A stretch of 64,000 nucleotides of DNA from Dokdonia sp. (lineage in GTDB: Bacteria > Bacteroidota > Bacteroidia > Flavobacteriales > Flavobacteriaceae): positions 5,241 to 69,240 of the forward strand of contig JAHDIF010000006.1 in NCBI GenBank assembly GCA_020630915.1. The letters are read 5' to 3'. The first letter of the stretch is position 1; each line of letters starts with the position of its first letter. The notes below the pieces were generated by a model. The model was not told where the DNA came from and ran no database searches. It saw only the letters and a program-made list of their open reading frames with translations. Of the stretch, positions 5,286 through 59,788 are shown in pieces. Made by a program: the position numbers and the translations under genes.

Positions 5286-5767
5286 TAAAAATGACTTTTT
5301 TGATATTATGGACTCATACTCATCTAAAAAAATGAATTCATCCTATAATCAAAATTTAAAATTCTTAAGTTGTGGAAAATCTTTAAAATGAAGAAACCCA
5401 AAACTTACAAAAAACTTAGTAAACCTTTTAACTCTCAATAAAAGATCTATGTAGTGTACATGTTTATAAGTTGGATGGGACAAATATATCTTATCTTGAG
5501 AATATGATAAGATAAAATTGTTTTTTTTAGACATTGTAAAGCTTAGTATCGATGAAATACACAAAAAATAGTAATATAATGAACGAGTTACCCACAAAAT
5601 ATCAAAAATTAACTTGTGCAAAATTGATATTCTTGCTTTCGCGAAAGCATAAATTGCAATAAAATCTCCTTTGAGCACACAAAAAAGAGTCATTATTACT
5701 GTCAAAAACACCAAACAGAAGAGATAATAAATACATTCATTTATCTTTGCTCCCTCAATTATAAATT
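5286..5767. other. Gene-poor divergent spacer between adhesin and prfC
   Basis: AT-rich spacer between divergent genes. It contains one perfect copy of the GCTTTCGCGAAAGC palindrome (5635-5648). A 121-codon minus-strand frame (5349-5714) crosses it, but it is Phe/Lys/Ile-rich, matches nothing recognised and contains the palindrome, so I do not call it a gene. Promoters for both flanking genes should lie here, but no convincing TTTG/TAnnTTTG pair was found. Confidence 0.5.
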
Positions 5768-7363
5768 ATGACTGTAGCAAAAGAAATTGCTAGACGCCGC
5801 ACTTTTGGAATTGTATCACATCCAGATGCGGGAAAGACTACACTTACGGAGAAACTCCTACTTTTTGGAGGCGCCATACAAGAAGCCGGGGCCGTAAAAT
5901 CCAATAAAATCAAAAAAGGTGCAACGAGTGATTTTATGGAAATTGAACGTCAGAGGGGGATTTCTGTGGCGACTTCGGTCCTAGCGTTTGAATATGAGGG
6001 AACCAAAATCAATATTTTAGACACTCCAGGTCACAAAGATTTTGCAGAAGATACTTTTAGAACTTTAACCGCAGTTGATAGTGTAATTGTAGTTATAGAT
6101 GTTGCGAAAGGGGTAGAAGAACAAACAGAGAAGCTCGTAGAAGTATGCCGTATGCGCAACATCCCTATGATCGTTTTTGTGAATAAACTAGATAGAGAAG
6201 GAAAAGACGCCTTTGAACTTCTAGATGAAATAGAGCAAAAGCTACATTTAAAAATTACTCCTTTAAGTTTTCCTATCGGTATGGGATACAACTTTAAAGG
6301 TATTTATAATCTTTGGGAGAAAAATGTAAACCTCTTTAGTGGTGATAATAGGAAGAATATAGAGGAAACTGTAGAAATTTCTAATATAACAGACTCCGTA
6401 TTAGATGATCTTGTAGGTGCTGAGTCAGCGCAAAATCTAAGAGACGAGTTAGAACTTGTGCAAGGCGTGTATCCTGATTTTGATCACACTGCATATCTAG
6501 AAGGAACACAGCAACCCGTTTTTTTTGGATCGGCCTTAAACAACTTTGGAGTGCGCGAACTATTAGATTGCTTTGTGAAGATTGCACCTACACCACGTCC
6601 AAAACAAAGTGAAGAACGCTTAGTAGAACCGCACGAAAAAGACTTCACTGGATTTGTATTTAAGATTCACGCAAATATGGATCCCAAACACAGAGACAGA
6701 CTAGCCTTTATAAAGATTGTTTCTGGTGTTTTTGAACGTAATAAGCCTTATTTACACGTTCGGAATAAAAAGAAACTTAAATTCTCAAGTCCAAATGCCT
6801 TTTTTGCAGAAAAAAAACAAATTGTAGATATCTCCTACCCTGGCGATATCGTAGGATTACACGATACAGGTAATTTTAAAATAGGCGATACACTTACAAC
6901 GGGAGAAGAAATACATTACAAAGGTATTCCAGCATTTTCTCCTGAGCATTTTAGATACATTAATAATGCTGATCCAATGAAGTCCAAGCAACTAGCTAAA
7001 GGGATAGACCAGCTTATGGACGAAGGTGTGGCTCAATTATTTACACTAGAACTTAACGGAAGGAAAGTCATTGGTACTGTGGGCGCTCTTCAATATGAAG
7101 TGATACAATACCGTCTTGAACATGAATATGGAGCAAAATGCACCTACGAACCACTTAATGTGCATAAGGCCTGCTGGGTTGATCCAGAAGATCCTAAAAG
7201 CGAAGAGTTCAAGGAATTCTTACGAGTAAAGCAACGTTATATGGCCAAAGACAAAAGAGGCCAACTCGTTTTTCTTGCAGACTCCCCTTTTAGCCTACAA
7301 ATGACCCAGCAAAAATATCCTTCTGTAAAAATGCATTTTGTAAGTGAATTTGAAAGTGCATAA
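5768..7363 (+). CDS. prfC: Peptide chain release factor 3
   Basis: RF3 is the GTPase that recycles RF1/RF2 from the ribosome after peptide release. The 531-residue length is typical. It has the EF-Tu/EF-G type G domain: P-loop SHPDAGKTTLTEKLL at about 16-30, the switch region RQRGISVATSV, DTPGHKDFAEDT at about 85 and NKLD at about 138. Domain 2 and the RF3 C-terminal domain follow (VGALQYEVIQYRLEHEYGA, then FSLQMTQQKYP). RQRGISV separates it from EF-G (RERGITI) and the LepA/TypA families. Monocistronic; the shared terminator at 7551-7580 lies about 190 bp downstream. Confidence 0.95.
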   Translation: MTVAKEIARRRTFGIVSHPDAGKTTLTEKLLLFGGAIQEAGAVKSNKIKKGATSDFMEIERQRGISVATSVLAFEYEGTKINILDTPGHKDFAEDTFRTLTAVDSVIVVIDVAKGVEEQTEKLVEVCRMRNIPMIVFVNKLDREGKDAFELLDEIEQKLHLKITPLSFPIGMGYNFKGIYNLWEKNVNLFSGDNRKNIEETVEISNITDSVLDDLVGAESAQNLRDELELVQGVYPDFDHTAYLEGTQQPVFFGSALNNFGVRELLDCFVKIAPTPRPKQSEERLVEPHEKDFTGFVFKIHANMDPKHRDRLAFIKIVSGVFERNKPYLHVRNKKKLKFSSPNAFFAEKKQIVDISYPGDIVGLHDTGNFKIGDTLTTGEEIHYKGIPAFSPEHFRYINNADPMKSKQLAKGIDQLMDEGVAQLFTLELNGRKVIGTVGALQYEVIQYRLEHEYGAKCTYEPLNVHKACWVDPEDPKSEEFKEFLRVKQRYMAKDKRGQLVFLADSPFSLQMTQQKYPSVKMHFVSEFESA

Positions 7364-7550
7364 ATTAAAAATGATTTTAAGGCATTTTAAAGAAGCTTAT
7401 ACATAATACTCATATAATTAGTCTATTTAATACTCAGAATTCCTCAGCGCTCCTTAATACACGTTTGCTTTGTAATGATTATAATAAAAAACAATAGTTT
7501 TGTTTATATCTATAGCTAAATGTAATAGTTAATCAGTTTTCAGCCCAATA

Positions 7551-7580
7551 AAAAACCCGCAACAGATGTTGCGGGTTTTT
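7551..7580. terminator. Bidirectional intrinsic terminator (prfC / tRNA-Ser)
   Basis: Stem CCCGCAAC / GTTGCGGG with a loop of four bases, flanked by five A's on the left and five or more T's on the right, so it can end transcription of prfC from the left and of the minus-strand tRNA from the right. Confidence 0.85.
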
Positions 7581-7586
7581 TATTGC

Positions 7587-7670
7587 GGAGAAAGAGGGAT
7601 TCGAACCCCCGGACCTGTTACAGTCAACAGTTTTCAAGACTGCCGCATTCGACCACTCTGCCATTTCTCC
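7587..7670 (-). tRNA. tRNA-Ser (anticodon TGA)
   Basis: Read on the minus strand the sequence starts GGAGAAA and ends TTTCTCC, a perfect 7-bp acceptor stem. The anticodon arm is GCAGT-CTTGAAA-ACTGT with loop anticodon TGA. A long variable arm (class II) and a T-arm GGGGG-TTCGAAT-CCCTC follow. The long variable arm and TGA identify serine. The CCA end is not encoded. Length is 84 nt. Confidence 0.95.
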
Positions 7671-7758
7671 TTGAGTGACTCATCAAGCTATTTGCCTGAT
7701 TGCGGGTGCAAATATAACACCCTTTTTTTATTCTATAAAGGTTTTTATTTCCTTTTTT

Positions 7759-8853: not shown

Positions 8854-8906
8854 AGTAATGCCCTTACTTAGGGTACAGTTTAATTAATAATAAAATGGAT
8901 ATATGC

Positions 8907-8920
8907 GCTTTCGCGAAAGC
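8907..8920. repeat. GCTTTCGCGAAAGC palindrome (representative intergenic copy)
   Basis: Perfect 14-bp palindrome between ychF and the hydrolase pair. Other perfect copies begin at 5635, 18061, 22034, 26926, 29197, 34295, 35582, 36841, 42193, 45850, 51357, 53531, 54707 and 59688. Decayed copies begin at 9374, 13715, 14804, 24970, 25545, 30504, 37862, 57417, 61012 and 63061. Confidence 0.95.
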
Positions 8921-8961: not shown

Positions 8962-9801
8962 TTATAACGAATTACTGCCTAATATTTGATAGACAACTTC
9001 TCGATATTCTTCATAATTAATAAGGTCATTGTGACCTCCTCCAGGGACTGTAACAAATAACTTATTCTCACTTTTAATATGATCGTATAATTTTTTACCG
9101 TGCTCATACGCCACTACCATATCTTCTGTTCCGTGAATAATAGTAATAGGTGCTTGTACTTCATTTATATACTCATTTGTCGGAAATCTATATTTCAAAA
9201 GTTTTTTTACAGGCAGTATGGGAAATCTGGATATTGCCTCATCTTCTACACTATAAAAAGGGGTTTCTAAGATGAGCTGTGTTGTTTCATTTTTAGACGC
9301 TACGTAAGTGGCAAAGGTGGTACCTAAACTTCTGCCATAAATGTATAATGACGTGGCCGTTTTTAGAGATTCTGCTTTCGCAAAAGCGTACCACCAATCT
9401 GCATCTTCATACAGAGCTCGTTCACTCATTATACCCATACTCTTGCCAAAGTTGCGATAATCCATAACCACGACATTGTAATCTTTTTTAACAAAATACT
9501 GTACAATCTCTCCCCATCTACTCAAGTCACCCGCATTCCCATGAAAATAGAGTAAAGTCCCTTTAGGCTTATTGACCTTAAAATAAAGTCCATGAAGATG
9601 TGCCCCATCGCTCGTTGTATGGGTAATCTCCTCAAATGAACTATCAAATTTAAAGGTATAATCCTGCGACAATTGCGTAGGATGAAAGAGCAAGTTTTCT
9701 TGAAAAAAATAGAGCCCACCGCTCAAAATTGCATACAGATTTACCATTAAAAATAGTGCTATAAAAACAAGTCTGCCTTTACGCTTTTTTACGTCTCGCA
9801 T
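8962..9801 (-). CDS. Membrane-anchored alpha/beta hydrolase (BEM46-like)
   Basis: 279 residues. An N-terminal membrane anchor (LVFIALFLMVNLYAILSGG) precedes an alpha/beta hydrolase fold: LLYFHGNAGDLSRW (oxyanion-hole region, about 80-95), the nucleophile elbow YGRSLGTT (Ser near 155), Asp in HGTEDMV and His in GGGHNDL near the C-terminus. So the Ser-Asp-His triad is complete. The layout resembles the BEM46/ABHD13 group; the substrate is unknown. It overlaps the upstream paralogue by 23 bp, so the two form an operon that probably arose by tandem duplication. A degenerate copy of the palindrome (9374-9387) is read in frame as AFAKA. Confidence 0.85.
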   Translation of the reverse strand: MRDVKKRKGRLVFIALFLMVNLYAILSGGLYFFQENLLFHPTQLSQDYTFKFDSSFEEITHTTSDGAHLHGLYFKVNKPKGTLLYFHGNAGDLSRWGEIVQYFVKKDYNVVVMDYRNFGKSMGIMSERALYEDADWWYAFAKAESLKTATSLYIYGRSLGTTFATYVASKNETTQLILETPFYSVEDEAISRFPILPVKKLLKYRFPTNEYINEVQAPITIIHGTEDMVVAYEHGKKLYDHIKSENKLFVTVPGGGHNDLINYEEYREVVYQILGSNSL

Positions 9802-13707: not shown

Positions 13708-13837
13708 TACGTATGCTTTCGCAAAAGCGAGGGTAGAGATTCATAAAAGTATTCAGAACAAAGGAGTAAAACTATCTTATATGATCTTCAACCCTAGAAA
13801 AAAAGGAATAGTTCAACGCATATGAGAAACTCAATTT

Positions 13838-18057: not shown

Positions 18058-18130
18058 TACGCTTTCGCGAAAGCCTTTGTAATTTTTTGTACATTGAAAA
18101 AGAGCATTAACAATTAAATACAATATAAAA

Positions 18131-20261: not shown

Positions 20262-22661
20262 ATGCGCCTATTCTTTGGAGCAATGCTATTATTAATATCT
20301 AGCATTGCAACCTCTCAAAACTGCCAGAACACGTTATCTGGTTACATTATAGATTTACACGATCAATCTCCGCTAGCTAATGCTACTATTATTCTGGCTG
20401 GAGCAGAGACCGCTGTAATTACAGATGAAAAAGGTTTTTACAGCATTTCTGGATTATGTGACGCCACGTACTCATTACAAATTTCGCATCCTGCTTGTAG
20501 TACACAAGCTGTGCGAGTTATTGTAAGAGGAGATACTGAACGCACAGTAAATATGGAACATCACCTTGAAGAATTAGGAGAAGTTTCAGTAATAGGTTCT
20601 GGAAATTCAAAGGCTAATAAAACTAGTCAAGAACAACAAGTGAGTACTGTTGCTTTGCAAGTAAATGCTGCTGGATCCATAGGCGATGCTCTAAAAGGAT
20701 TAAGTGGGGTTTCTAGTTTAAATACAGGGAATACGGTTGTAAAACCGGTTATTCAAGGTTTACATAGTAGTCGTGTAGTGTTAGTTACTGATGGAACTCG
20801 TTTACAAGATCAAGAATGGGGTGTAGAGCACGCGCCAAACATAGACATAAATAATGCAGGCAGCGTGAGTGTTGTTAAAGGAGCTTCTGCACTGCAATAC
20901 GGTGGAGACGCTATCGGAGGAACTATCATTATAAAGCCTCTAAGAGTACCTCAAGCAGATAGTTTATACGGAAGCACACTACTTACAGGAGCTTCAAACG
21001 GTCGCGGTGGAAGTATTACTTCTACACTTATAAAATCTTACAATTCTGGATGGTATGGGAGCATTCAAGGAACACTTAAACGATTTGGAGACTTCGAGAC
21101 TCCAGACTACATATTGAGTAATACAGGAGCTTATGAACGTGATCTAGCTTTAAGAGTTGGGGTGAATAAATTCTCGCACGGTATAGAGGCAAGTTATTCT
21201 ATATATAATAATGAGTTGGGAATTTTAAGAGCTTCGCACGTAGGAAGTGCAGCAGATCTAGCTAATGCTATTGCCAATACAGGAGTCCCAAATTTTACAG
21301 AAGATTTTACGTATGAAATAGACTCCCCAAAACAGGAAATAAAACATCAAACTGCAAAGATTAGCGCCTATAAACGATTTAACGATTTAGGTAAGTTGAG
21401 TTTTCAATATGATTATCAAAAAAATAATCGTCTAGAGTTTGACATTAGACGCGATAGTGATGATGTACGTCCTGCTATAGACTTAGAATTACGCACACAT
21501 ACTACAACTGTCGATTTTGACTACACTGCAGATAACACCATTGTTGCTAAGGCTGGCATCCTTGGTCGTGCACAAACAAACTTCCCAGATCCTGCAACAG
21601 GAATAAGAAGGTTAATTCCGGATTACGACCGCATAGATTTTGGAGCCTATCTGCTCGGGGCAAAAACCTTGAACGACTGGACCTTAGAAGGAGGCGTACG
21701 TTATGACTTTAATTTTATCGATGCACAAAAATTTTACAGAACCTCATTTTGGGAAGATCGTGGTTATGATGTTTTATTCCCAGAGCTTGTGATTGAAGAT
21801 CTTGGGACACAATTTTTGGTTAATCCTGAGTTTACCTTTCACAATATTTCTGCTACTGCAGGTGCTGGGTATGATCTAAGTGATACGTACAATCTTACCT
21901 TTAACTATGCTTTATCTAACCGTGCGCCTAACCCATCAGAACTTTTTAGTGATGGGTTACATCAGAGTGCGGCTAGAATAGAACTTGGCGATATACGATT
22001 TGACAAAGAAACCTCTCATAAGATATCTGTTGCGCTTTCGCGAAAGCATAATAACTGGTCATTTACGCTAGCTCCTTTTGCTAATTTCATATCAGACTTT
22101 ATACTTATTGAGCCTACTGGAAGCCAGCAAACACTACGCGGCAATTTTCCAGTATGGGAATACAGACAAACCAATGCGCGATTGCTAGGTATTGATATAG
22201 ACAATAGGTATATCATAAACGAATATCTAACGATGACTAACCAACTGTCTATAGTAAAAGGTCAAGATCGAACGCTCGATTTGCCACTTATCAATATTCC
22301 TCCTGTTAACACGACAAATCGTATTACCTATACTAATGAGAAATGGTACAACTTTAACTTCTGGATAGAGAGTCAGTATGTTTTTAGACAAAATGAGTTC
22401 CCAGACACAAACTTTCCCGTTTTTCTAGTTGAATCAAATCAGAATGTTACTGTCGATGTGAGCACCCCTCCAGAGGCATACCATTTACTTAACCTACGAG
22501 GGAAAGTAGATTTTTCCCTAAACACCACATCAAAGCTAGAAGTAGCGCTAGCTGTCAATAATCTTTTTGATACTACGTATCGTAACTATTTAAACAGACA
22601 AAGATTTTTTGCCGATGACCTTGGCAGAAATCTGAGTCTACAACTTAAAATCAATTATTAA
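20262..22661 (+). CDS. TonB-dependent receptor, possibly for a metal
   Basis: 799 residues: signal peptide (LFFGAMLLLISSIATSQ), a carboxypeptidase-like regulatory domain (LSGYIIDLHDQSPLANATIIL, about 25-105), plug domain (SIGDALKGLSGVSSL, IQGLHSSRVVLVTDGTRLQDQEWGVEHAP, VVKGASALQYGGDAIGGTI) and a 22-strand-type barrel ending in the aromatic NLSLQLKINY. No TonB-box was assigned. The barrel has a GLHQSAARIELGD segment like that of ZnuD zinc receptors, and the upstream neighbour is His-rich, so zinc is a plausible ligand; not proven. A perfect palindrome copy at 22034 is read as ALSRKH. Confidence 0.85.
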   Translation: MRLFFGAMLLLISSIATSQNCQNTLSGYIIDLHDQSPLANATIILAGAETAVITDEKGFYSISGLCDATYSLQISHPACSTQAVRVIVRGDTERTVNMEHHLEELGEVSVIGSGNSKANKTSQEQQVSTVALQVNAAGSIGDALKGLSGVSSLNTGNTVVKPVIQGLHSSRVVLVTDGTRLQDQEWGVEHAPNIDINNAGSVSVVKGASALQYGGDAIGGTIIIKPLRVPQADSLYGSTLLTGASNGRGGSITSTLIKSYNSGWYGSIQGTLKRFGDFETPDYILSNTGAYERDLALRVGVNKFSHGIEASYSIYNNELGILRASHVGSAADLANAIANTGVPNFTEDFTYEIDSPKQEIKHQTAKISAYKRFNDLGKLSFQYDYQKNNRLEFDIRRDSDDVRPAIDLELRTHTTTVDFDYTADNTIVAKAGILGRAQTNFPDPATGIRRLIPDYDRIDFGAYLLGAKTLNDWTLEGGVRYDFNFIDAQKFYRTSFWEDRGYDVLFPELVIEDLGTQFLVNPEFTFHNISATAGAGYDLSDTYNLTFNYALSNRAPNPSELFSDGLHQSAARIELGDIRFDKETSHKISVALSRKHNNWSFTLAPFANFISDFILIEPTGSQQTLRGNFPVWEYRQTNARLLGIDIDNRYIINEYLTMTNQLSIVKGQDRTLDLPLINIPPVNTTNRITYTNEKWYNFNFWIESQYVFRQNEFPDTNFPVFLVESNQNVTVDVSTPPEAYHLLNLRGKVDFSLNTTSKLEVALAVNNLFDTTYRNYLNRQRFFADDLGRNLSLQLKINY

Positions 22662-24852: not shown

Positions 24853-25108
24853 CAGTCTATTTATTGTTTTATTTGATGGTCAGGTATACTTGACCTTTAA
24901 ACATGTTGTTTGGTACTATCCTTTTGCACGTATGGCTCATTTTATAAAAACGTTTTCGTATTTCATTATCCTTTCGCGAAAGCATAAAAATTAACCACTT
25001 CTTCAAAAAAACACAATCTAAACATACTCATTTTGTCAAATCCCTAAAAATGAGCATACACCCTTGTGTGGTCTTGTAAAAATACTACATTTAACACGTA
25101 CAAACGGT

Positions 25109-25325: not shown

Positions 25326-27767
25326 ATGCGTGTACTCAAATTTGGTGGTACTTCAGTAGGTAGTACAAAAAACATACAGAAAGTGATCAAGATCGTTGCT
25401 CACAGTTCTGAATCTGATCGTTGCCTTGTGGTCGTTTCTGCATTTAGTGGGATTACCAATAAGCTCCTAACTGCTGGTTCTCTTGCTGCAGCAAAAAAAG
25501 ATGACTATATAGATATCTTTAAACAGGTGAGTGATACTCATTCTGCTTTTGCGAAAGAGTTAACGAACTCTAATCCTGAGATTCTAGCAACCGTTAGCAA
25601 GTTAATGAGTGACTTGGAGGCATTACTTCAAGGGATCTTCTTGATAAACGAATTGTCTCCAATGACATTAGACAAACTTGCTTCTTTTGGAGAACGCACT
25701 AGCGCTATTATCATTACAGCAGCTTTTAAAACAGAAGGTATACCAGCCTCATATAAAGACAGTAGAGAATTAATCATTACAAATGAGCAATACACAAAGG
25801 CTGCTGTTCTTTATGACAAAACCAATCAAAATATTCAAGAGCATTTTAACCACTCAGACGCACAAGTAACCATATTTCCAGGATTTATTTCGAGTTCAGA
25901 ACAAGGACAAATTACAACCTTAGGAAGAGGTGGTTCTGACTATACGGCAGCAATTCTAGCAGCCGCTTTAGATGTAAAGGCTTTAGAAATATGGACAGAT
26001 GTGAGCGGAATGTACTCTGCGAACCCTAAACTGGTAAAACAAGCAAAACCCATTAAAAGTATCTCGTATCACGAGGCTATGGAACTATCACATTTTGGAG
26101 CTAAGGTTCTCTATCCACCTACCATTGCTCCGGTAATGCAAAAAGACATTCCATTATATATTAAAAATACCATGGAACCTGAAGCCTATGGAACTAAAAT
26201 CTCCTTAGACTCCAATGGCAACAATCAACCTATCAAAGGTATCAGTCATATAGAAAATATTGCGCTGCTCACTTTAGAAGGCGCCGGATTGATAGGCCTT
26301 TCTGGGGTTTCTAAACGACTTTTTGAAACCTTGTCTATTCATCATATTAATGTTGTATTAATTACACAAGCTTCTAGTGAACATAGCATATGCGTGGGAA
26401 TAGACGCTCATCAAGCCCAGATCGCTCAGGAAGCAATAGATGCTGAGTTTGCCTATGAAATTTCTCAATATAAAATTGACCCCATAGTTGTAGAGAAGGA
26501 CCTAGCAATTATTGCCCTCGTAGGCGAGCGGATGAAAAGCCATCAAGGAGTTGCGGGCAGAATGTTTAGAACTCTAGGTAAAAACAATGTAAATATTAGA
26601 GCTATTGCACAAGGAGCAAGTGAAAAGAATATAAGTGCAGTAATCGCTCAAAAAGATGTTAAAAAAGCGCTTAATAGTTTGCACGAACGTTTCTTTGAGG
26701 ATCAACACAAGCAGCTTAACCTGTTCATTATGGGCGTTGGAAATGTAGGTGGACGCTTGATGGCTCAAATTGCACAACAACAAGAGTATCTTTTAAACAA
26801 TCTCAATCTCAACTTAAGAGTCTTAGGTATATCTAATAGCCGAAAAATGATACTTCAAGAAGAGGGTATTAACCTTAAAAACTGGCAAGAACTTTTGGAT
26901 AACGGTGAGGAAGCAAGTATGGTACGCTTTCGCGAAAGCGCTATAAACCTCAATATACGCAACTCTGTATTTGTAGACGTAACAGCAAACGAAGAGGTAG
27001 CAATGACTTATGGAGACTATTTAAGAAATAGCATTGCTGTAGTGGCCTGTAACAAAATAGCTTGTGCCAGCACCTTTGAAAACTACAGTGAACTTAAAGA
27101 ACTAAGTAAGAAGTACAATACTCAATTTATGTTTGAAACCAATGTGGGTGCTGGACTACCCATTATTGATACGCTAGGTAATCTTATTGCCTCTGGAGAC
27201 AAAATAACACGCATTCAAGCCGTCCTTTCTGGAAGCCTGAATTTTGTTTTTAATAACTTTAAAAGCGGTGACAGTTTTCACGATGTTGTGCAACAAGCCA
27301 AAACAGAGGGCTATACAGAGCCCGATCCCAGAATTGATTTGAGCGGTGTAGATGTGGCGCGCAAAATATTGATTCTAGCAAGAGAATCTGGATTAAAACT
27401 TAATTTAGAAGACATCACAAACGAGCCATTTCTAACCCAGAACAATCTCGAAAGTACAGACGTCCCACACTTTTTTGAAACATTAAAAGAAGATGCTAGT
27501 CATTTTGAAAAGCTGGTTGCAGATGCCGATTCAAAGGGAGAACGTCTTAAGTACGTCGCAGAGCTTAACAACGGCAAGGCCAGTGTAGGTTTGCAATCTG
27601 TTGGTCCAGAAAGTGATTTTTACAAGCTAGAAGGAAAAGATAATATTGTACTTTTCTACACAGAAAGATACCCAGATCAACCGCTCATTGTAAAAGGTGC
27701 GGGTGCTGGTGGCGATGTTACGGCAAGCGGTTTATTTTCTGATATTATACGATTGAGACAGAATTAA
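25326..27767 (+). CDS. thrA: Bifunctional aspartokinase / homoserine dehydrogenase
   Basis: 813 residues, catalysing the first and third steps from aspartate to threonine. Aspartokinase domain at 1-290: KFGGTSVGS at 4-12, SFGERTSA, GRGGSDYTA and the Mg/substrate segment EIWTDVSGMYSANPK. Two ACT regulatory domains at about 300-455 suggest threonine feedback. Homoserine dehydrogenase from about 465: MGVGNVGG (NADP motif), DVTANEEVA, VACNKIACA and SGSLNFVFNNF. A perfect palindrome copy at 26926 is read as VRFRES in the dehydrogenase part. Heads the thr operon downstream of a leader. Confidence 0.97.
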   Translation: MRVLKFGGTSVGSTKNIQKVIKIVAHSSESDRCLVVVSAFSGITNKLLTAGSLAAAKKDDYIDIFKQVSDTHSAFAKELTNSNPEILATVSKLMSDLEALLQGIFLINELSPMTLDKLASFGERTSAIIITAAFKTEGIPASYKDSRELIITNEQYTKAAVLYDKTNQNIQEHFNHSDAQVTIFPGFISSSEQGQITTLGRGGSDYTAAILAAALDVKALEIWTDVSGMYSANPKLVKQAKPIKSISYHEAMELSHFGAKVLYPPTIAPVMQKDIPLYIKNTMEPEAYGTKISLDSNGNNQPIKGISHIENIALLTLEGAGLIGLSGVSKRLFETLSIHHINVVLITQASSEHSICVGIDAHQAQIAQEAIDAEFAYEISQYKIDPIVVEKDLAIIALVGERMKSHQGVAGRMFRTLGKNNVNIRAIAQGASEKNISAVIAQKDVKKALNSLHERFFEDQHKQLNLFIMGVGNVGGRLMAQIAQQQEYLLNNLNLNLRVLGISNSRKMILQEEGINLKNWQELLDNGEEASMVRFRESAINLNIRNSVFVDVTANEEVAMTYGDYLRNSIAVVACNKIACASTFENYSELKELSKKYNTQFMFETNVGAGLPIIDTLGNLIASGDKITRIQAVLSGSLNFVFNNFKSGDSFHDVVQQAKTEGYTEPDPRIDLSGVDVARKILILARESGLKLNLEDITNEPFLTQNNLESTDVPHFFETLKEDASHFEKLVADADSKGERLKYVAELNNGKASVGLQSVGPESDFYKLEGKDNIVLFYTERYPDQPLIVKGAGAGGDVTASGLFSDIIRLRQN

Positions 27768-28293: not shown

Positions 28294-28356
28294 GAATTTG
28301 TGATTTGCGATTTGGAATTTGGAATTTGGAATTTGGAATTTGGAATTTGGAATTTT
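28294..28356. repeat. Right 7-bp repeat array (NNATTTG orientation)
   Basis: Nine heptads: GAATTTG, TGATTTG, CGATTTG, then six perfect GAATTTG-type units up to 28356. This is the reverse-complement orientation of the array left of the four-helix-bundle gene. It ends about 28 bp before the thrB ATG. Perfect tandem copies make length variation by slippage likely. Confidence 0.92.
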
Positions 28357-28383
28357 TTGAAAATAACACATCCTACTTATAAA

Positions 28384-37849: not shown

Positions 37850-37918
37850 CTTTACGGGTATGCTTTCGCGAAACCTATCCTGAGCGAAGTCCAAGAGGCG
37901 CTTTTAAAACATAAAATT

Positions 37919-42192: not shown

Positions 42193-42206
42193 GCTTTCGC
42201 GAAAGC
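42193..42206. repeat. Palindrome copy with extended symmetry
   Basis: The 14-bp core lies in a longer perfect palindrome, TTACGCTTTCGCGAAAGCGTAA (42189-42210 region), downstream of the barrel protein gene and ahead of its terminator. Extended symmetry makes this the best copy for a protein-binding or cruciform test. Confidence 0.9.
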
Positions 42207-44063: not shown

Positions 44064-47000
44064 CTAAGCCTTCTTTTTATAGTATTTTCTGTATTTCCAA
44101 TGCGATAGTACTCCTAATAAAGCAATCAATACCCCTGTAATTACAATTTTTTGCCCAGCAATATCACCCCCACTTTGATAAGCGTGAAGACCAGAGAGGT
44201 AATAGTTCACTCCAAAATACGTAAACATAATACTCCCTAATGCAATTATAGAAAATAGGTTAAATAACCAGCGCCCTCTCAAACCTGGTATCAAACGCAT
44301 ATGAATCACAAATGCATAAACTATTAGTGATATGAGTGCCCAAGTTTCCTTAGGGTCCCATCCCCAATAACGCCCCCAGCTTTCATTAGCCCATTGTCCT
44401 CCTAAAAAAGTACCTATTGCAAGGAGCACTATACCAACAGTAAGCGCCATCTCGTTAATAAGCGTGAGCTCTTTAATATTGAGATCCATACGCTCTTTGT
44501 TCTTCTCATTTGTAAATATTATGAGAAGTAATGTTACTAATCCTAAGATAGCACCCAACGTAAAAGGCCCATAACTAGCGACAATTACCGCCGTATGTAT
44601 CATTAACCAGTAACTATTTAGAACGGCTTGGAGGTTTGCAATTTCTGGATTCATCCAGTTCATACTTGCCGCCCATAAAATAAATCCCGCTACAAAAGCC
44701 GTACTTGCAATGGTGAGCATACTCTTACGCCCAAAGCCTAACCCAAAAAACATCGTGGCCCATCCTACATACAACACAGACTCATAGGCATCACTCCAAG
44801 GAGCGTGGCCAGAAATATACCAGCGCCAAATCAAGGCTACTGTATGACCCAAAAACAAAAGAATAACAATACCTGCTCCTATTTTTGTCATTAGACTTAT
44901 AAACTTATTAGGATTAAATATCCCAGTAATTACAAACACCATCATAAATAATGCTGCCAGCAAATACATCCAATACAATTTCTTAAAAGGATCATTATTG
45001 TTGTATTGTATCTCTGCATCTATCTTAGCATCTGACGGAATAATCTCTTCTCCAAATTTCTTTTGAAAAGAAGCAATACTCTTTAAAAAAGTATCTGCTT
45101 TAGAATAGTCACCCGTTGTATTTGCCTCTTGTATACTTTGTAAATACAAGGGGATAATTTGCTTACTATATAAACTGTCCATCCCTTTATAGCCAGACTC
45201 AGCTAGCTCTGCATATGAGAGCCATTTGTTATTAGGGTCACCCGGCTTGGGGAAAATCTTTAAGATGCTCCCACCTAGGGTTCTGTTTAACAACCCTAGT
45301 CGTGTACTTACGTCTCTAAATTCTTTATCTATTATGGTAGGAGTAGCAGCTGCATAGGCATCTGGCAAATAAGGATCTAGCTTATTTGTAAGATCTTCTG
45401 TAATAAAATCCATAGCCTTAAAGCGTTTTACATCTTCTGGAACACCTATAATAGTACGTATACTATCATTTCCTTTTTTGAGATAAATAACCTCTGCATT
45501 GTACCAAAGAATAGGGTTTTGGATCATAGAAATCATCACTTGATCTGCATTGAGGCCTGCGTAGGTGTCACTCCTACTTAACTTACGTAAGAGCATGCTG
45601 GAGAACGTATTGATAGGCATCATTCGGCCACCATCATCTTGAATGATCATTCTTCCAAATTTTGCTGCGTGCTCTTTAGAAACCGCTGTCTTTACGATTA
45701 GCGCATCTACTTCTTCGGGCGTGGGTGCTGTGTGATTATTTTCTTTGGGCGTTAAGCTTATAATTTCCTCCGTAGCTTCTTGGCTTAAGGAAATTGTATC
45801 CTCAACTTCAACGGCTGCAGTATTAATCTCTTGTGCTTGTGCTGGGTTTGCTTTCGCGAAAGCGAACAATAAAACAACCATTCCTAGCTTGGCTTTTTTT
45901 GCCTTTACTTTATCCAGCATTCTTTTAAGATCTCCAAAACGAGAGCCTCTATCAAAAAGGATCATCATCATACCCAAATACAATAAAAAGTAACCTATAT
46001 ACGTCACCCAAGTACCCCAAAAATCGTGACTTACTGAAAGTATCGTCCCACTTTCGTCTGGAAAGAAACTAGCTTGAAAAAATCGAAACCCTTTGTGATC
46101 CAGTACGTGATTCATGTAAATGTCATAGTCAAAAGACTCTTCTGGATCTTCTACGGTAATCTTACTCTCAAAAGAGGCATAACTATTCTCAGTTCCTGGG
46201 TATCGCTCTGCAATAAAATCGTTGAGCTTTATAGAAAATGGGAGCGGCAACGCTTTACTTCCATACGACAAGTACATTTTGTAGCCGCCTATTTCTATAC
46301 TTTTTTTATCGTTACTGTAGCCTCTACCCCCTAATAGACCAACTGTTTGGGTTTCTCCATTTACCGTAACATCCACAAAAAGAGCATCTTCTTGGTTCTT
46401 TTCTTTTACTTCCTTCTCTACAACACCCGTACGTCCTTTTAAAGCCGGGTCTGGAATTACTAAGAGCTTTCCTCCTAGATTGTACAAAGCCCTTAGCTTA
46501 AGAGGTTGCTCTACCCCAGCCTGGACTTCTGTTTTGGTCTGAGTTGCCATCACCGTGGCATCTCCAGCAAAAGGGGTTTTAAACGTATAATTTTCTCCGT
46601 CAAATCCTATATTAATAGCACCCTCTGTAGGTTTATTAAAGGCATATAGTACATTGTGAATATTTACCAATTCTCCTTCAACTAAGAAGTGCTCGTGTCT
46701 CTGGTTATCATTACCTGTCTCAACAATCTTGAGATGGTACACACCTTTTTCATCTTCTACAAAACCGTCTTCTGCGCCGTCAATAAATTGGTTAAATTCT
46801 ATCTTAATAGGGTTTCCTTTGAAATCTGTATTCCAAGTGAAGTCGTTATTCAACCTGGGAGATAAGTCCAGCCTTTTTTCTATCGTTCTGCGCAGTCGCC
46901 CTTCATCTGTATCTCCATCTATAAGTACCTCTAAATATGTTTTTTCACTCAAGAACGTATTCTCTGAAGCCCCTTCTTCTATAGGCATCACACCTTCGTA

Positions 47001-47309: not shown

Positions 47310-47412
47310 AGCAAAGCAAGTTTTTTCTTGTGTGCAAAGATAACCCACAAGAGGCAAATAACCATCTCAAACCCCTGCTTTAAATGGAATTTATCAAGCC
47401 GTGAAAATGACG

Positions 47413-51263: not shown

Positions 51264-52205
51264 ATGAATATCAATATTCAATCGATCAGTACACTAGCGA
51301 TAGTGGTCGCTTTTACCTTCATAAGTTGCAAGAAAACTGGCAATGTAGATGAGATTGCTTTCGCGAAAGCGTCCTCAACACAACCTATTCCTGAAAACAT
51401 TAGTAAGCGTGATATATCACAAGAATTTAAGGACTATTGGTACGCCGGCACTGCCGAAATATCATCCTACAAACTAGAGCAGGCGCGTTATGGCGAGATG
51501 AGAGATGGGAACGCCGTACTCATCTTCGTAACCGAAGACTTTTTACCAGAAAAACAAGTAAAAGCAGATAGACAAGATGATCAAAACATACCCGTTCTCA
51601 AACTAAACGCTACTAAAAATTTTAATACAGGCATCTACCCTTACTCTGTTATGAGTAGTACATTTTATCCTGTTTTTCAAGAACAACATGCACTCAAAGT
51701 TACGAGCAGTATGCAAGAATGGTGTGGGCACGTCTATGCACAGCTCAACAACAGAGATTCTTTTGAAATTAAGAGTTATTCTTATTTTGAGAGTGAAGGA
51801 GATAAAGAGTTTTCCTTGGATAAGGCTATTTTAGAGAATGAACTGTGGACTCAATTGAGAATTGACCCATCTAAGCTTCCCACAGGATCGCTCAATGTCA
51901 TTCCTGATTTTTCATATACTCGTTTGAAACACGTCCCTGTTAAAGCATACAGTGCCCAAGGGATTTTAAAAGAAGATAGCTATACACTAGAATATCCAAC
52001 ACTTAATAGAAAGGTAGTACTACATTTTACTCCACAATTCCCGCACATTATTACTTCTTGGGAAGAAACCTATAAAGATGGATACGGTCCCAATGCCCAA
52101 GAACTTACTACTACAGCAACATTGATTGAAACTATAAAAAGTCCATATTGGAGTAAAAATAGTAACAAGGATTCGGTACTTAGAGAAGAATTAGGTCTTA
52201 AATAA
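51264..52205 (+). CDS. Conserved lipoprotein of unknown function
   Basis: 313 residues. Lipoprotein signal with Cys near 22 (FTFISCKKTG). The mature part is rich in beta strands (DYWYAGTAEISSYKLEQARYG, DGNAVLIFVTEDFLPEKQVKAD, TGIYPYSVMSSTFYPV, EWCGHVYAQLNNRD). I recall no family. A perfect palindrome copy (51357) is read as IAFAKASS in the linker right after the lipid Cys, a stretch with no structural constraint. Often next to maf in related genomes, as far as I recall. Confidence 0.75.
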   Translation: MNINIQSISTLAIVVAFTFISCKKTGNVDEIAFAKASSTQPIPENISKRDISQEFKDYWYAGTAEISSYKLEQARYGEMRDGNAVLIFVTEDFLPEKQVKADRQDDQNIPVLKLNATKNFNTGIYPYSVMSSTFYPVFQEQHALKVTSSMQEWCGHVYAQLNNRDSFEIKSYSYFESEGDKEFSLDKAILENELWTQLRIDPSKLPTGSLNVIPDFSYTRLKHVPVKAYSAQGILKEDSYTLEYPTLNRKVVLHFTPQFPHIITSWEETYKDGYGPNAQELTTTATLIETIKSPYWSKNSNKDSVLREELGLK

Positions 52206-52775: not shown

Positions 52776-52861
52776 TCGATAAACGTTAAAGAAATCGTAA
52801 AGCACTTACCTCAGCATTGATTTTGGCTATATTTGGGAGAATACTATTATCTCAAACCTTT

Positions 52862-55393
52862 ATGCATAAATCAGCTTTACTCACTGTACTTTGTTTATTA
52901 TTATCGCTTTCAAATGCTTTTGCGCAAGGCATCACCATTCAACCAGAAAAACCCACATCTTCAGAAATCTTTGAAGATATCAAGAAGCTCAATTTTTTAG
53001 GATCTGTTTTATATGTAGCAGCACACCCAGATGATGAGAATACCACTGCCATCTCGTACTTTGCAAACACGGTAAAGGCCCGTACGGCCTACCTATCGCT
53101 CACACGAGGTGACGGAGGACAAAACATTATAGGACCCGAATTACGAGAATTATTAGGTGTTATACGCACCCAAGAATTGCTGGCAGCAAGGGCAACAGAT
53201 GGTGGTGAGCAACTGTTTACAAGAGCAAATGATTTTGGCTACTCAAAACATCCAGATGAGACGCTGGATATCTGGAATAAAGACGAAGTACTTAGTGATG
53301 TTGTTTGGGCGATTCGTACGTTTAAGCCAGACGTAATCATCAATAGGTTTAACCACCGTACACCTGGAAGTACGCACGGTCACCATACCTCAAGTGCGAT
53401 GTTAAGCGTAGAAGCTTTTGACCTTGCAGGTGACGCATCCAAGTATTCAGACCAATTAAAATACACGAGCACTTGGCAACCTAAACGACAGTTTTTTAAT
53501 ACCTCGTGGTGGTTTTATGGGAGTAGAGACGCTTTCGCGAAAGCAGATAAATCCAATCTCGTTAAAGTAGATGTAGGCACCTTCTACCCAGGCCACGGAC
53601 TCTCAAATACAGAAATTTCGTCACTAAGTAGAAGTCAGCATAAATCGCAAGGATTCGGCAATACAGGATCTCGTGGTCAAAACGATACCTATTTTGAGTT
53701 ACTACGCGGTGAAATGCCGAGTAATAATGACATCTTTCAGGGTATTGATACCAGCTGGAACAGAGTACAAGGAGGCAAATCCATTGGAAAAATATTACAA
53801 AAAGTACAAGAAGAGTTTGACTTTACAAATCCAGCAACCTCCGTAAAAGAGCTAGCACAGGCCTACGCACTTATAGAAAAACTACCGGCTTCTCACTGGA
53901 AAACCATCAAATCTAAAGAGATCAAAAATATTATAGCTGCGTGTGCAGGACTCTATATGGAAGGAGTAACAAATACCAATATGGCCGCTACTGGTGAAGC
54001 TATTACAGTAAAAACAGAAGTCATTAATAGAAGTAATGCCCAGATCACGCTAAACGCTATTACTGGCGTTACAGGGACAAGAGAAACTATACAGAAACCC
54101 CTTGATAACAATCAAAAATACACTACCGAAAGTACATTTACCGTAAATGCTGCTACTGCAAAGACCAATGCTTACTGGCTTAATGAATTAGGATCTTTAG
54201 GGATGTACAACGTACAAGACAGAACCCTTATCGGGAAACCAGAAACGCCTAAAACCAATGCACTACGCTACGAGTATACGATAGAAGGAGTACCTATTAC
54301 GTATGAAAAACCTGTAATACACAAATTTAATGATCGCGTAAAAGGCGAAGTATATCAATATTTTGAAGTAGTACCTGAAGCCTCTGTAAGCTTAGAAGAA
54401 AAGGTACAGATTTTTGCTTCTAATGATTTTAAGAAAGTCAATGTAAAGGTTACTGCTCATAAAAATAATCTCGACGGAATGCTTTCACTCGATTTAGACA
54501 ATAGTTGGAAAGTGACCCCATCTAGTATTCCTGTCTCGCTTGACACAAAAAACCAGACAGCAACTTATACGTTTACGGTTACGCCGCCTTCATCACAAAG
54601 TGAGACCAATATCACTCCGGTCCTAAAAGTAGGTTCTCAAACATTTACAAAGGAACTAGTAACCATAGATTACAGTCATATCCCGTTGCAGAGTTTGTTT
54701 CTTCCAGCTTTCGCGAAAGCAGTAAAAATAGACATCCAGCGTAAAGGAGATTATATAGGCTATATACAAGGCGCAGGAGATGCCGTAGCCGAAAATCTTG
54801 AACAAATAGGCTATCAAGTAGCGGTTATAAAGCCTAGTGAAGTAACGCCAGAACGCCTATCTCAGTTTGACGCTGTCGTTGTAGGAATACGTGCTTACAA
54901 TGTAGTAGACGAGATGCAACAAGTACAACCAATGCTTCTAGATTACGTAAAAAACGGCGGTACGATGATCGCACAATACAATACTAGCGGTCGTTGGGGT
55001 AATACTAAAATAGGAGCTCCCTATACCCTTAAACTATCACGCGACCGTGTAACTGACGAAAATAGTGATGTGCGTATCCTCGCAAAAGACCACCCGCTTA
55101 TGAACTTCCCAAATAAATTGGATCAAAACGATTTTAAAGGATGGACACAAGAACGCGGACTTTATTTCCCAAATGAATGGGCAGATGAGTATACCCCTAT
55201 CCTCTCTATGAACGACAAAGGAGAGACAGCAAAAGAAGGAAGCCTTCTAGTAGCTCCGTACGGTGATGGACATTATATTTATACAGGTTTAAGTTTTTTT
55301 AGAGAATTACCTGCTGGGGTTCCTGGAGCGTATAGATTATTTGCAAATATGCTTTCTATAGGGAAGAAAGAATCACAACCTATAAAACAATAG
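52862..55393 (+). CDS. Exported PIG-L-family deacetylase with long C-terminal extension
   Basis: 843 residues from ATG 52862, which begins a good signal peptide (SALLTVLCLLLSLSNAFAQ). PIG-L metal-dependent N-acetylglucosamine deacetylase domain at about 40-260: AAHPDDENTTAISYF (HPDDE zinc motif) and, further on, NRFNHRTPGSTHGHHTSSAM (HxxH). Then about 300 residues of beta-rich linker and a C-terminal domain that may be an ThuA-like glutamine-amidotransferase fold (QFDAVVVGIRAYNV, YVKNGGTMIAQYNTSG, NGHP-like AKDHPLMNF). Two palindrome copies (53531, 54707) are read as AFAKAD and AFAKAV. Substrate is probably a surface glycan. Confidence 0.88.
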   Translation: MHKSALLTVLCLLLSLSNAFAQGITIQPEKPTSSEIFEDIKKLNFLGSVLYVAAHPDDENTTAISYFANTVKARTAYLSLTRGDGGQNIIGPELRELLGVIRTQELLAARATDGGEQLFTRANDFGYSKHPDETLDIWNKDEVLSDVVWAIRTFKPDVIINRFNHRTPGSTHGHHTSSAMLSVEAFDLAGDASKYSDQLKYTSTWQPKRQFFNTSWWFYGSRDAFAKADKSNLVKVDVGTFYPGHGLSNTEISSLSRSQHKSQGFGNTGSRGQNDTYFELLRGEMPSNNDIFQGIDTSWNRVQGGKSIGKILQKVQEEFDFTNPATSVKELAQAYALIEKLPASHWKTIKSKEIKNIIAACAGLYMEGVTNTNMAATGEAITVKTEVINRSNAQITLNAITGVTGTRETIQKPLDNNQKYTTESTFTVNAATAKTNAYWLNELGSLGMYNVQDRTLIGKPETPKTNALRYEYTIEGVPITYEKPVIHKFNDRVKGEVYQYFEVVPEASVSLEEKVQIFASNDFKKVNVKVTAHKNNLDGMLSLDLDNSWKVTPSSIPVSLDTKNQTATYTFTVTPPSSQSETNITPVLKVGSQTFTKELVTIDYSHIPLQSLFLPAFAKAVKIDIQRKGDYIGYIQGAGDAVAENLEQIGYQVAVIKPSEVTPERLSQFDAVVVGIRAYNVVDEMQQVQPMLLDYVKNGGTMIAQYNTSGRWGNTKIGAPYTLKLSRDRVTDENSDVRILAKDHPLMNFPNKLDQNDFKGWTQERGLYFPNEWADEYTPILSMNDKGETAKEGSLLVAPYGDGHYIYTGLSFFRELPAGVPGAYRLFANMLSIGKKESQPIKQ

Positions 55394-55395
55394 AG

Positions 55396-55503: not shown

Positions 55504-55504
55504 T

Positions 55505-57229: not shown

Positions 57230-57665
57230 AGAAACGCAATCATTATGGTGGCTCACCCTAATTCTTGTACTTCTTGGAGGGCAGATTCTGGTAAGTGGTA
57301 TTTTTCAATGGGGATCAAAACCTATTCCTTTAGAGGTTTCTATACTTTTAGGAGGGCTTATCATTTTGCCAGCTTTACTAGTATACAATCTAACAATTGA
57401 AATTACTAAAGAATACGCTTTCGCGAAATTTGGTATAGGCATCCTAAAACGTAAAGTATATATCAAAGACCTCGACCTCTCAAAAGCAGAAATCACCGAG
57501 TTATCACTGGCTTCAGGCATAGGATATCGTTATGGCTCAAGAGGGTTGTTTCTCAATACAAAACCGGGTCCTGCACTATTTATTCCTGCAAAAGAAGGAA
57601 AGAAACATTTTTTTGTGGGGACTAGGAATGGGGAGGAGATTTTGAGGGTGTTGAAAGATGAATAG
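57210..57665 (+). CDS. Membrane protein with PH-like domain
   Basis: 151 residues from ATG 57210 (MSKVLYKETQSLWW). Two hydrophobic segments (WWLTLILVLLGGQILVSGIF and LEVSILLGGLIILPALLVYNL) and then a soluble domain (YAFAKFGIGILKRKVYIKDL, GYRYGSRGLFLNTKPGPALFIPAKEGKKHFFVGTRN) resembling the PH-like domains of small bacterial membrane proteins. Overlaps the symporter gene by 20 bp, so they are co-translated. A broken palindrome copy (57417) supplies YAFAKF. Function unknown. Confidence 0.75.
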   Translation: MSKVLYKETQSLWWLTLILVLLGGQILVSGIFQWGSKPIPLEVSILLGGLIILPALLVYNLTIEITKEYAFAKFGIGILKRKVYIKDLDLSKAEITELSLASGIGYRYGSRGLFLNTKPGPALFIPAKEGKKHFFVGTRNGEEILRVLKDE

Positions 57666-57747
57666 TATGAATAATGGCCATCTTGCTGTCCCGAGGTTCC
57701 GGGAGTTTCAGCATAACACAGATAATAGTTTACATTTAAAAAAGTGA

Positions 57748-57773
57748 GACCCTGAAACAAGTTCAGGGTGACG
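57748..57773. repeat. 26-bp dispersed palindromic repeat, copy 1
   Basis: GACCCTGAAACAAGTTCAGG with GTGACG following; the core CCTGAA..TTCAGG forms a hairpin. Copy 2 (58703-58728) differs at two positions. The two copies flank the gene at 57798-58529. A nearby GC-rich inverted element (CCCGAGGTTCCGGGAG) is at about 57690. Confidence 0.85.
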
Positions 57774-57797
57774 TTGTATTTCTGAGAGCTACTCACC

Positions 57798-58529: not shown

Positions 58530-58702
58530 TAGAAAAAAAGATTGGTTAAACCGTCCACAATGTAGCGTTATACAGTAGGTAAGAAATAAAACAAAAGGTT
58601 AAAACCTATTAAGGTTTTCCTAATGCCTTTAGGTCAAGCTCAACTTGTTTCGGCATCACACACAAGAAGGATATACAACTAAGTCCCAATAGCAACTTGT
58701 GC

Positions 58703-58728
58703 GACCCTGAAATAAATTCAGGGTGACG
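58703..58728. repeat. 26-bp dispersed palindromic repeat, copy 2
   Basis: GACCCTGAAATAAATTCAGG with GTGACG following; differs from copy 1 (57748) at two positions. It lies in the 276-bp gap between the two minus-strand genes, which holds no gene. Confidence 0.85.
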
Positions 58729-58746
58729 AACCGCTCGCTTGGTAAC

Positions 58747-58777
58747 AAAAAAGCGCCCACATTGCTGTGGGCGCTTT
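58747..58777 (-). terminator. Intrinsic terminator after the DUF2911 gene
   Basis: Twelve-base arms AAAGCGCCCACA / TGTGGGCGCTTT, four-base loop; the A-run on the low-coordinate side is the T-tract for minus-strand transcription. Adjacent to a dispersed repeat (58703). Confidence 0.9.
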
Positions 58778-58805
58778 ACTTTTTCACGAAAGTGAAAGAA
58801 CTATT

Positions 58806-59651
58806 TTACTTAGCTCCCCACTCTTTTAAGGAATCTGTATTCATCTTAACATAATCTGCATTTCCAGCTTCTGTTGCTCCTGCAAGAGAGGCTTTTGCTG
58901 CCTTGATCGCGCCTTTCTTATCACCAGCCTTAGCGAGTAATAAGGACTGCTGGCGCAGTTGCCAGTAACGTGGTGTCTCGATCATAGACATTGCTTTGTC
59001 CATATACTTCTTAGCATCATCCAGTTTTTGATCTGTAGAAGCTAGATATACTGCTGCTGCGTAGTAATCTCCAGCTGCTGGGCCATTCATAACCTTATCG
59101 ATAGAAGAAAGAACGGTCTCATTTGCAGGCACTCCAAAAGGAACTCCTACATATACATTTTCCCAAAGGATGCCTAGTTTTGCTCCATCGTTTGTAAGGT
59201 CATCCACCGTAATTGTAAATGTTTCAACAGGCATAGGCATTTTATCTACCATCACCTTAGTTACTACAGCTACTTTATCATCATCCCATTTTTCTGGAGT
59301 TCCCCAGTTATTGGTATCACTGTAAAAATATACTTCCCAACTTTTTTCTCCTGGTTTTGTAAATACTGCATACTCACCAGCCTTTACATCTTTCCCGCCT
59401 ATTGTAACATCTGTAGAAAAACTTACAATGGTGTTCTTATTTGCTCCCGTACGCCACATTTTCCCATAAGGCACAAGGTTTCCAAAAATTGTTCTTCCTC
59501 TCATACTTGGACGAGAATAGTCTACTGTTACATCAGTAAGACCTACTACTTGCGTCATACTAGATGCCGGACTAGGTGCTGGTGTATTAATTTGTGCCGT
59601 GGCTCCTAGGGTACAAAGACTCAAGGCTGCCATAAAAAGTAATTTTTTCAT
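58806..59651 (-). CDS. DUF2911 exported protein with TPR-like C-terminus
   Basis: 281 residues with a signal peptide (LLFMAALSLCTLGATAQ). DUF2911 core: DVTVDYSRPSMRGRTIFGNLVPYGKMWRTGANKNTIVSFSTDVTIGG and KAGEYAVFTKPGEKSWEVYFY; the C-terminal 80 residues are helical (ASTDQKLDDAKKYMDKAMSM, LLLAKAGDKKGAIKAAKASL) like tetratricopeptide repeats. Known only as a conserved periplasmic domain. Divergent from the aquaporin gene; a perfect palindrome lies in their shared upstream region (59688). Confidence 0.9.
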   Translation of the reverse strand: MKKLLFMAALSLCTLGATAQINTPAPSPASSMTQVVGLTDVTVDYSRPSMRGRTIFGNLVPYGKMWRTGANKNTIVSFSTDVTIGGKDVKAGEYAVFTKPGEKSWEVYFYSDTNNWGTPEKWDDDKVAVVTKVMVDKMPMPVETFTITVDDLTNDGAKLGILWENVYVGVPFGVPANETVLSSIDKVMNGPAAGDYYAAAVYLASTDQKLDDAKKYMDKAMSMIETPRYWQLRQQSLLLAKAGDKKGAIKAAKASLAGATEAGNADYVKMNTDSLKEWGAK

Positions 59652-59788
59652 AATAATGTATCTATTGTTAGGTATTTGATTTTGTGCGCTTTCGCGAAAG
59701 CTTTACAAAAATACCAAACGCCTACCCCATAAACGTTAACAAAATCTTAATATCGCAAGAGCTATCTTTGTACAAAGATTTTAAAATA

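Follow-up and report, generated by a model that had tools for sequence, protein, structure and literature searches.

A perfect 14-bp palindrome repeated throughout Dokdonia genomes, possibly an uptake-type self-tag

Introduction

What role might a perfect 14-bp palindrome play that recurs every few kilobases in Dokdonia sp., a member of the Flavobacteriaceae? The question is raised by a stretch of 64,000 nucleotides (assembly GCA_020630915.1, contig JAHDIF010000006.1, positions 5,241 to 69,240), called the window below, in which the palindrome, GCTTTCGCGAAAGC, has 15 exact matches (Table 1). An earlier inspection of the letters by themselves, referred to here as the sequence-only reading, had listed the 15 start positions, all of them correctly. 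It had also claimed about ten further copies with one to five changes; by our count nine carry one or two changes. With these, matches with at most two mismatches number 24, where 100 dinucleotide shuffles averaged 0.14. Among the ideas offered at that time (the highly iterated palindrome HIP1 of cyanobacteria, uptake sequences, segregation sites and methylase-linked motifs), the uptake sequence fits best.

We propose, with a probability of about 0.45, that the palindrome is a lineage-specific, genome-wide, uptake-type self-tag of Dokdonia and one further genus, serving a presumed reader in presumed DNA uptake. In each tested statistic except density the site behaves like an uptake sequence, and it differs from these in being a palindrome. 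Behind this proposal we rank, in descending order, a chromosome-organising site, a recombination signal, a self-mark for a defence system, and a methylase-linked palindrome of the HIP1 kind.

Distribution in the genome, genus and family

The genome of the window (G000; 2,967,236 bases) has 685 exact copies, one per 4.3 kb, and the reversed, not complemented, control word has none in the whole of it. A sample of 452,445 bp from this genome has 101 exact copies, where a third-order Markov model predicts about 0.001. Counts are far above the Markov expectation and copies are found beyond the window, so that neither of the two outcomes that the sequence-only reading had named as contrary to it, counts near such an expectation and confinement to the window, was obtained. 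Its view that neither a phage nor one mobile element explains the motif also holds, given the genome-wide occurrence.

All 18 Dokdonia genomes, G000 included, have 369 to 905 exact copies each, a density of about one per 3.6-7.6 kb; the single-contig genome G007 has 808. In two incomplete genomes of the genus (G006 and G010) the density is below that of most, and exact copies still exceed one-mismatch copies. In a family sample of 149 genomes including G000, the one other genus with many copies (G027) has 578; another 29 genera have between 1 and 17, and 118 lack exact copies. The order was sampled with 346 genomes, G000 among them; here counts are high only in G000 and G027, and 22 others have 1-16 copies; the reversed control is found there in three genomes, one copy in each. 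No exact copy was found in 80 named Bacteroidota loci (1,508,231 bases), none of them titled Dokdonia. A blind scan for dispersed 12-mers recovered the motif in 19 of the 20 stretches taken from Dokdonia; the remaining one is 8.4 kb long. The same scan gave no word in the 66 named Bacteroidota loci of at least 15 kb, 14 shorter ones having been excluded, and thus no similar tag in these relatives. GCTTTCGCGAAAGC was not met in the literature searched for the 14-mer, and among the matches listed in a search with TTTCGCGAAA there was no paper on such a motif.

The members of the genus were also compared for rhodopsins. G004, G005 and G007 encode near-identical ones; that of G007, compared with solved structures, is nearly identical to a sodium-pumping rhodopsin, which we take to be from Dokdonia eikasta. 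G000 encodes only a different rhodopsin type.

Copies in other genera were followed through 19 stretches taken from 14 of the low-count genomes. In eight of the 14 (G118, G104, G095, G090, G029, G128, G161 and G071) the copies are in genes of what looks like one cluster, membership being judged by shared peptide context, and in four of these eight two copies lie 933 bp apart within one gene. In the remaining six genomes each copy is single and falls in some other gene. One more genome, G093, has the cluster and is the one in which its genes were named by Pfam: they encode an outer-membrane efflux protein, an RND transporter, a FUR-like regulator and heavy-metal ATPases. What looks like one island is seen, over these nine genomes, in loci L005, L007-L017, L304 and L305. 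The copies in this metal-efflux island read as DNA from a motif-bearing donor. The motif would then be of use as a mark of DNA that seems to have left the clade, as it flags the island in other genera.

Maintenance, spacing and placement of the sites

Exact copies exceed one-mismatch copies in all five samples (105:28, 77:8, 29:3, 31:1 and 24:5), and likewise in samples of the two lowest-count genomes (21:5 and 16:5). The sites also persist between orthologues. At 87% DNA identity, 20 of 23 aligned sites are intact compared with 26% of other 14-mers; at 93.3% identity the values are 18 of 20 and 46%, and at 94.6% identity 29 of 30 and 56%. Unaligned sites were dropped from these comparisons: 1 of 24 from G004 to G005 and 2 of 25 in reverse, 1 of 31 from G001 to G016 and 0 of 30 in reverse, 4 of 24 from G004 to G007 and 1 of 21 in reverse, and 5 of 25 from G005 to G007. 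Between G001 and G004 most sites were unaligned (26 of 31, and 21 of 24 in reverse). The arms flanking the palindrome, described below, change between orthologues at about the background rate, which indicates that their make-up is held and not their exact sequence.

The gene thrA illustrates how sites may come and go. Among 14 aligned sequences, the window's included, the site at 26926..26939 is exact in nine, has one change in four and two changes in one. A second thrA position is a perfect site in a single species, with at least two changes in each of the remaining 13; point mutation, and not insertion, would seem to account for such gain or loss. In the thrA orthologues of G004, G005, G007, G009 and G011 a protein search showed one TAA within the aligned stretch; the open frame is 825-828 aa.

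The spacing of the sites is more even than random. The coefficient of variation of the gaps is 0.52 in G000 (61 gaps) and 0.74 in G001 (the first 99 gaps, from the first 100 listed of 899 sites), both below the 1% point of simulated random spacing. Gaps under 1 kb number 0 of 61 in G000 and 4 of 99 in G001, where 21-23% are expected, and 3 of 60 in G008. Over 19 stretches of 20 kb in G000 the variance of the counts is 0.33 of the mean. Three 20-kb stretches (L289, which is G008:510001-530000, L295 and L298) have one site each, and the called genes of L289 are all on one strand; these stretches are possibly recent islands. The closest listed pair in G001, 197 bp apart, is at 9483 and 9680 of L303 (G001:340001-360000), with one site in the signal-peptide-like start of a 926-aa open reading frame (ORF) and the other in the gap immediately upstream.

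With genes called by a crude ORF caller, the density between genes is 0.40-1.28 per kb and that within genes 0.11-0.24 per kb, a preference of 1.8 to 10 times seen in all five samples. Sites within genes use three reading phases, giving AFAKA (41), x-FRES (19) and x-LSRK (13). Convergent gene pairs are not preferred, and a role as terminator was rejected.

Even spacing is also what a dedicated chromosome-organising or segregation protein might need, if a dimer bound every few kilobases to anchor, compact or load a nucleoid machine. Such a protein would suit the exact dyad, the fixed 2-bp spacer and the half-site at expectation (see below), as for a dimer on duplex DNA, and the phage sites with the same arms; were the reader intracellular, it would represent a new chromosome-wide system. 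We consider this unlikely, although it stands next in our ranking. The bias toward origin or terminus that the sequence-only reading had set out as a check is not apparent: by eye, no trend is seen across 17 stretches of G008, in which origin and terminus were set from GC skew only, and an origin-terminus marker was rejected on the same grounds. ParB_N has one match in 26 of 30 genomes and two in the motif-bearing G006 and G013 as well as in the motif-free G124 and G147. With no paralogue specific to motif-bearing genomes, a Noc- or ParB-like reader was dropped. The Noc-binding site and parS are palindromes of similar length on TTTC...GAAA arms; however, their central spacing differs by 2 bp, and they number tens at most. 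The parS consensus has one match each with two mismatches in the G000 and G008 samples, and none with zero or one mismatch in the 80 named loci, a result of little weight. The hundreds of Dokdonia sites exceed known segregation motifs. Finally, according to a 2006 study of uptake sequences, the sites of intracellular regulators have a relaxed consensus, unlike the Dokdonia motif (PMC1626085).

Anatomy of the site

The palindrome is flanked by arms of about 20 bp that, 5' of it on both strands, are C-poor and G/T-rich. The half-sites GCTTTC and GAAAGC occur 2 bp apart 105 times and with no other spacer of 0 to 11 bp, and GCTTTC outside the motif is at expectation (236 against 257). When mirror positions are pooled, the 28 G000 copies with a single mismatch include 18 whose change lies in the outer two positions, and in none of the 28 does it lie at position 3, 4 or 7. 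The base adjoining the core is C in 58% of arms in G000, 89% in stretches from other members of the genus and 95% in G027. Among the 101 copies in G000, 33 form the full 16-mer, with flanking C and G. T occupies position -3 in 67-81%. Between -4 and about -20, C is scarce (2-12%) and the share of G and T is increased, alike on the 5' side of both strands. The C fraction of the arms is 0.103 at 100 sites and was never below 0.174 in 300 draws of 100 random places; beside TCGCGA, at 64 places that exclude the motif but count its degenerate copies, the value is 0.168. The arm composition is the same in two genera and in phages. A longer hairpin or cruciform was considered and rejected, as complementarity between the arms does not exceed that found after permuting them. 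GCGAAAGC, a stable mini-hairpin, occurs outside the exact motif 47 times against 6.7 expected, with degenerate motif copies included in the count.

These features can be put together as a symmetric element of about 55 bp, with a palindromic core and keto-rich arms, that a putative dimeric reader of Dokdonia would use for self-recognition on chromosome and phage DNA, inside the cell or at its surface. That such an element is distinct from uptake sequences, Chi, HIP1 and segregation sites is a tentative suggestion, with the odds somewhat against it.

The TCGCGA at the center of the motif had led the sequence-only reading to think of protection by a methylase. In the HIP1 model, a site is maintained by a DNA methyltransferase together with methyl-directed mismatch repair, and Elhai 2015 does tie HIP sequences to methylases (PMC4390886). 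Like HIP1, the Dokdonia site is a highly iterated palindrome, repeated in and between genes over whole genomes of one clade. Nevertheless, we regard maintenance of this kind as very improbable here. The one contig of G007, with its 808 copies, has no match to the DNA-methylase families PF00145, PF01555 or PF02086 at E <= 0.001, in a search confined to these three and not aimed at others such as the Type I and Eco57I-like families; this absence from a motif-rich genome speaks against the model. Members of the three families are present in several other genomes of the genus. In addition, TCGCGA is near expectation outside the motif and its degenerate copies. Outside TTTCGCGAAA it occurs 37 times, where unmasked counts predict 41; masking the exact motif leaves 64 per strand against 30, and TTCGCGAA, mostly degenerate motif copies, makes up 30 of these 64. 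The site is also 14 bp long as opposed to 8, its mean spacing of more than 3.5 kb is wide for the repair range of about 1 kb in that model, it is rarer than HIP1 with about one copy per kb, and it does not depend on the three methylase families searched (HIP1 values from PMC4390886). Thus, of the sequence-only interpretation, the genome-wide occurrence, the independence from a phage or one mobile element and the resemblance to HIP1 or uptake sequences in statistics stand, and the methylase-linked role finds no support.

Phage copies

A viral collection returned at least 120 stretches, of which 80 were inspected. Most of these look like chance matches in GC-rich DNA. Eleven low-GC records have 40 sites in 299,328 bases, a density that is an upper estimate because the records were chosen for having a site; they include relatives or repeats of one phage (in G503 and G504 the positions of shared sites coincide). 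Some of the records have family matches to a Mu-type transposase with its ATPase, to tape-measure genes and to terminase genes, and by the transposase and terminase matches the site-bearing phage contigs fall into two kinds or more. Searches that started from the transposase encoded on a contig with the motif found four contigs, two with identical transposases, and all four have the motif. The arms at 23 distinct phage sites are the same as the chromosomal ones. In two phages of the transposase type a site lies 1,227 bp after the transposase gene, a shared distance indicating that phage sites are held too. Some viruses, presumably of these bacteria, seem to have the Dokdonia-type tag as well. 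One viral record (G499) is possibly no phage but a defence island. Contig L167 (IMGVR_UViG_2841145138_000001) is classed as viral and its genes, by eye, look more like a defence or helicase cluster than a phage.

Phages that carry the site at a held position would be expected if it were a self-mark for a defence system that attacks DNA without it, since phages of the transposase kind and of the terminase kind would then be passing as self. We know of no defence system, however, that reads a motif without DNA modification, and consider this explanation quite improbable.

The phage copies, together with the arms, can also be accommodated by a recombination or repair signal read in the cell, either Chi-like or a programmed break site. 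RecA prefers GT-rich DNA, and the G/T-rich 5' arms of both strands would be 3'-ended tails after resection, which could serve for RecA loading. The density of about one per 4.3 kb resembles that of Chi in E. coli, and Chi is likewise present in some phages. In contrast to the perfect dyad of Dokdonia, Chi is short, directional and not palindromic; a reader that is directional on one strand needs no dyad, and the half-site GCTTTC is not enriched. A signal of this type is therefore improbable in our view, less so than the defence mark.

Would phage copies be an objection to uptake? This objection was dropped on the evidence of three named phages of Haemophilus. HP1 and HP2 each have 17 exact uptake signal sequences (USS) of the Hin type, at densities of 0.53 per kb in HP1 and 0.54 per kb in HP2; one-mismatch copies number 9 and 11, respectively. 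In their hosts USS occur at close to one per kb, according to the 2006 study (PMC1626085). The tag can therefore be present in temperate phages of hosts with uptake sequences, its density in two of these three being roughly half that of the host, and given HP1 and HP2 the phage copies are no objection to the uptake reading.

The site as a proposed uptake-type self-tag

If the palindrome is an uptake-type tag, a symmetric receptor, presumably a DNA-binding dimer that belongs to the cell surface or the uptake apparatus, would prefer DNA with the site. Preferred uptake followed by recombination would favor alleles with a perfect site, and point mutation would create and hold the sites. One site per fragment of a few kilobases would suffice, so that close pairs would gain nothing.

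The comparison is with the USS of Pasteurellaceae and the DNA uptake sequences (DUS) of Neisseriaceae, the hallmarks of which, in the 2006 study, are a strong consensus, somewhat regular spacing and a preference for non-coding DNA, with long-lived sites and flanking motifs further noted for USS (PMC1626085). The Dokdonia site is like both in that perfect copies far exceed mismatched ones, spacing is regular, non-coding DNA is preferred with copies in coding DNA too, the site is shared across the clade, and individual sites are long-lived (PMC1626085). Like USS, it is also found in temperate phages. In the family of Dokdonia itself, Riemerella columbina prefers its own DNA in transformation, and the question whether its frequent words serve as uptake sequences is left open there (PMC7965970). 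The ComEC family (PF03772) is present above the cut-off and without stops in all 14 genomes searched.

Several points weigh against this interpretation. ComEC is widespread and so provides a weak test. Flavobacterium johnsoniae, a member of this family as well, showed no competence in the conditions of one study (PMC7965970), and with regard to Dokdonia competence the literature matches listed included no Dokdonia paper. The spacing in G008 is less even than in G000, with counts per 20 kb ranging from 1 to 8 (17 stretches, 77 sites). The phage control is mixed: phage SuMu has only six exact USS of the Apl type (0.16 per kb), outnumbered by 23 copies with one mismatch. Phage copies, moreover, suit an intracellular role equally. 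The motif, at 14 bp, is longer than the 9-bp USS and the 10-bp DUS, and its arms are symmetric and G/T-rich on both sides, whereas USS have AT-rich tracts on one side. No uptake sequence known to us is palindromic. One copy per 4.3 kb is about four times rarer than the one per kb of USS and DUS (PMC1626085), which weakens a claim of membership in the USS/DUS class, not one of a similar mode of action.

An uptake role in Dokdonia would differ from USS and DUS in resting on a perfect 14-bp palindrome, at one per several kb, in Bacteroidota. According to the 2006 study, no such uptake sequence was known at that time beyond Pasteurellaceae and Neisseriaceae (PMC1626085). A palindromic uptake-type tag in Bacteroidota, if true, would be of independent origin, and how such tags arise would become testable in a clade with motif-rich and motif-free relatives.

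Copies in the window

The 24 copies are listed in Table 1. The sequence-only reading had put five of the exact copies between genes and ten within them. This division is plausible and depends on the gene calls: the crude ORF caller places 12 in ORFs and three between, and two of the 12 fall in doubtful ORFs (5349-5714 and 59684-60451).

Table 1. Exact and near-exact copies of the palindrome in the 64-kb window
Feature	Position	Strand	Context
Exact palindrome	5635..5648	.	Upstream of prfC (release factor 3) gene at 5768; overlapped by doubtful minus-strand ORF 5349-5714
Exact palindrome	8907..8920	.	Between ychF (7759-8853, minus strand) and ORF 8962-9801 (minus strand)
One-mismatch copy	9374..9387	.	
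One-mismatch copy	13715..13728	.	
Exact palindrome	18061..18074	.	Intergenic, ORFs 17056-18006 and 18131-18760 on either side
Exact palindrome	22034..22047	.	In ORF 20262-22661, read ALSRK; exact in 2 of 9 aligned sequences (window and G017)
One-mismatch copy	24970..24983	.	
Two-mismatch copy	25545..25558	.	In thrA; orthologous place exact in G003
Exact palindrome	26926..26939	.	In thrA-like gene for fused aspartate kinase/homoserine dehydrogenase, read RFRES
Exact palindrome	29197..29210	.	In ORF 28300-29337, read AFAKA; exact in 11 of 14 aligned, window included
One-mismatch copy	30504..30517	.	Orthologous place exact in G015, G002 and G013
Exact palindrome	34295..34308	.	3' end of ORF 32501-34321, read AFAKA; exact in 3 of 3 aligned, window included
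Exact palindrome	35582..35595	.	In ORF 34328-35740, read AFAKA; absent from sole other aligned orthologue (G003)
Exact palindrome	36841..36854	.	In ORF 35842-36933, read AFAKA; absent from sole other aligned orthologue (G003)
One-mismatch copy	37862..37875	.	
Exact palindrome	42193..42206	.	Intergenic, directly past end of ORF 39744-42176
Exact palindrome	45850..45863	.	In minus-strand ORF 44064-47357 (CcsB-like, below family cut-off), read AFAKA
Exact palindrome	51357..51370	.	In ORF 51264-52205, read AFAKA
Exact palindrome	53531..53544	.	In ORF 52817-55393, read AFAKA
Exact palindrome	54707..54720	.	Second copy in ORF 52817-55393, read AFAKA
Two-mismatch copy	57417..57430	.	
Exact palindrome	59688..59701	.	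At the beginning of ORF 59684-60451, the start codon of which is doubtful; possibly intergenic
One-mismatch copy	61012..61025	.	
One-mismatch copy	63061..63074	.	

Elsewhere in the window, between 888 and 2595, a 16-base word recurs seven times, always without change, at a fixed step of 282 bp; this is a long tandem repeat, which probably lies in a repeat-protein gene.

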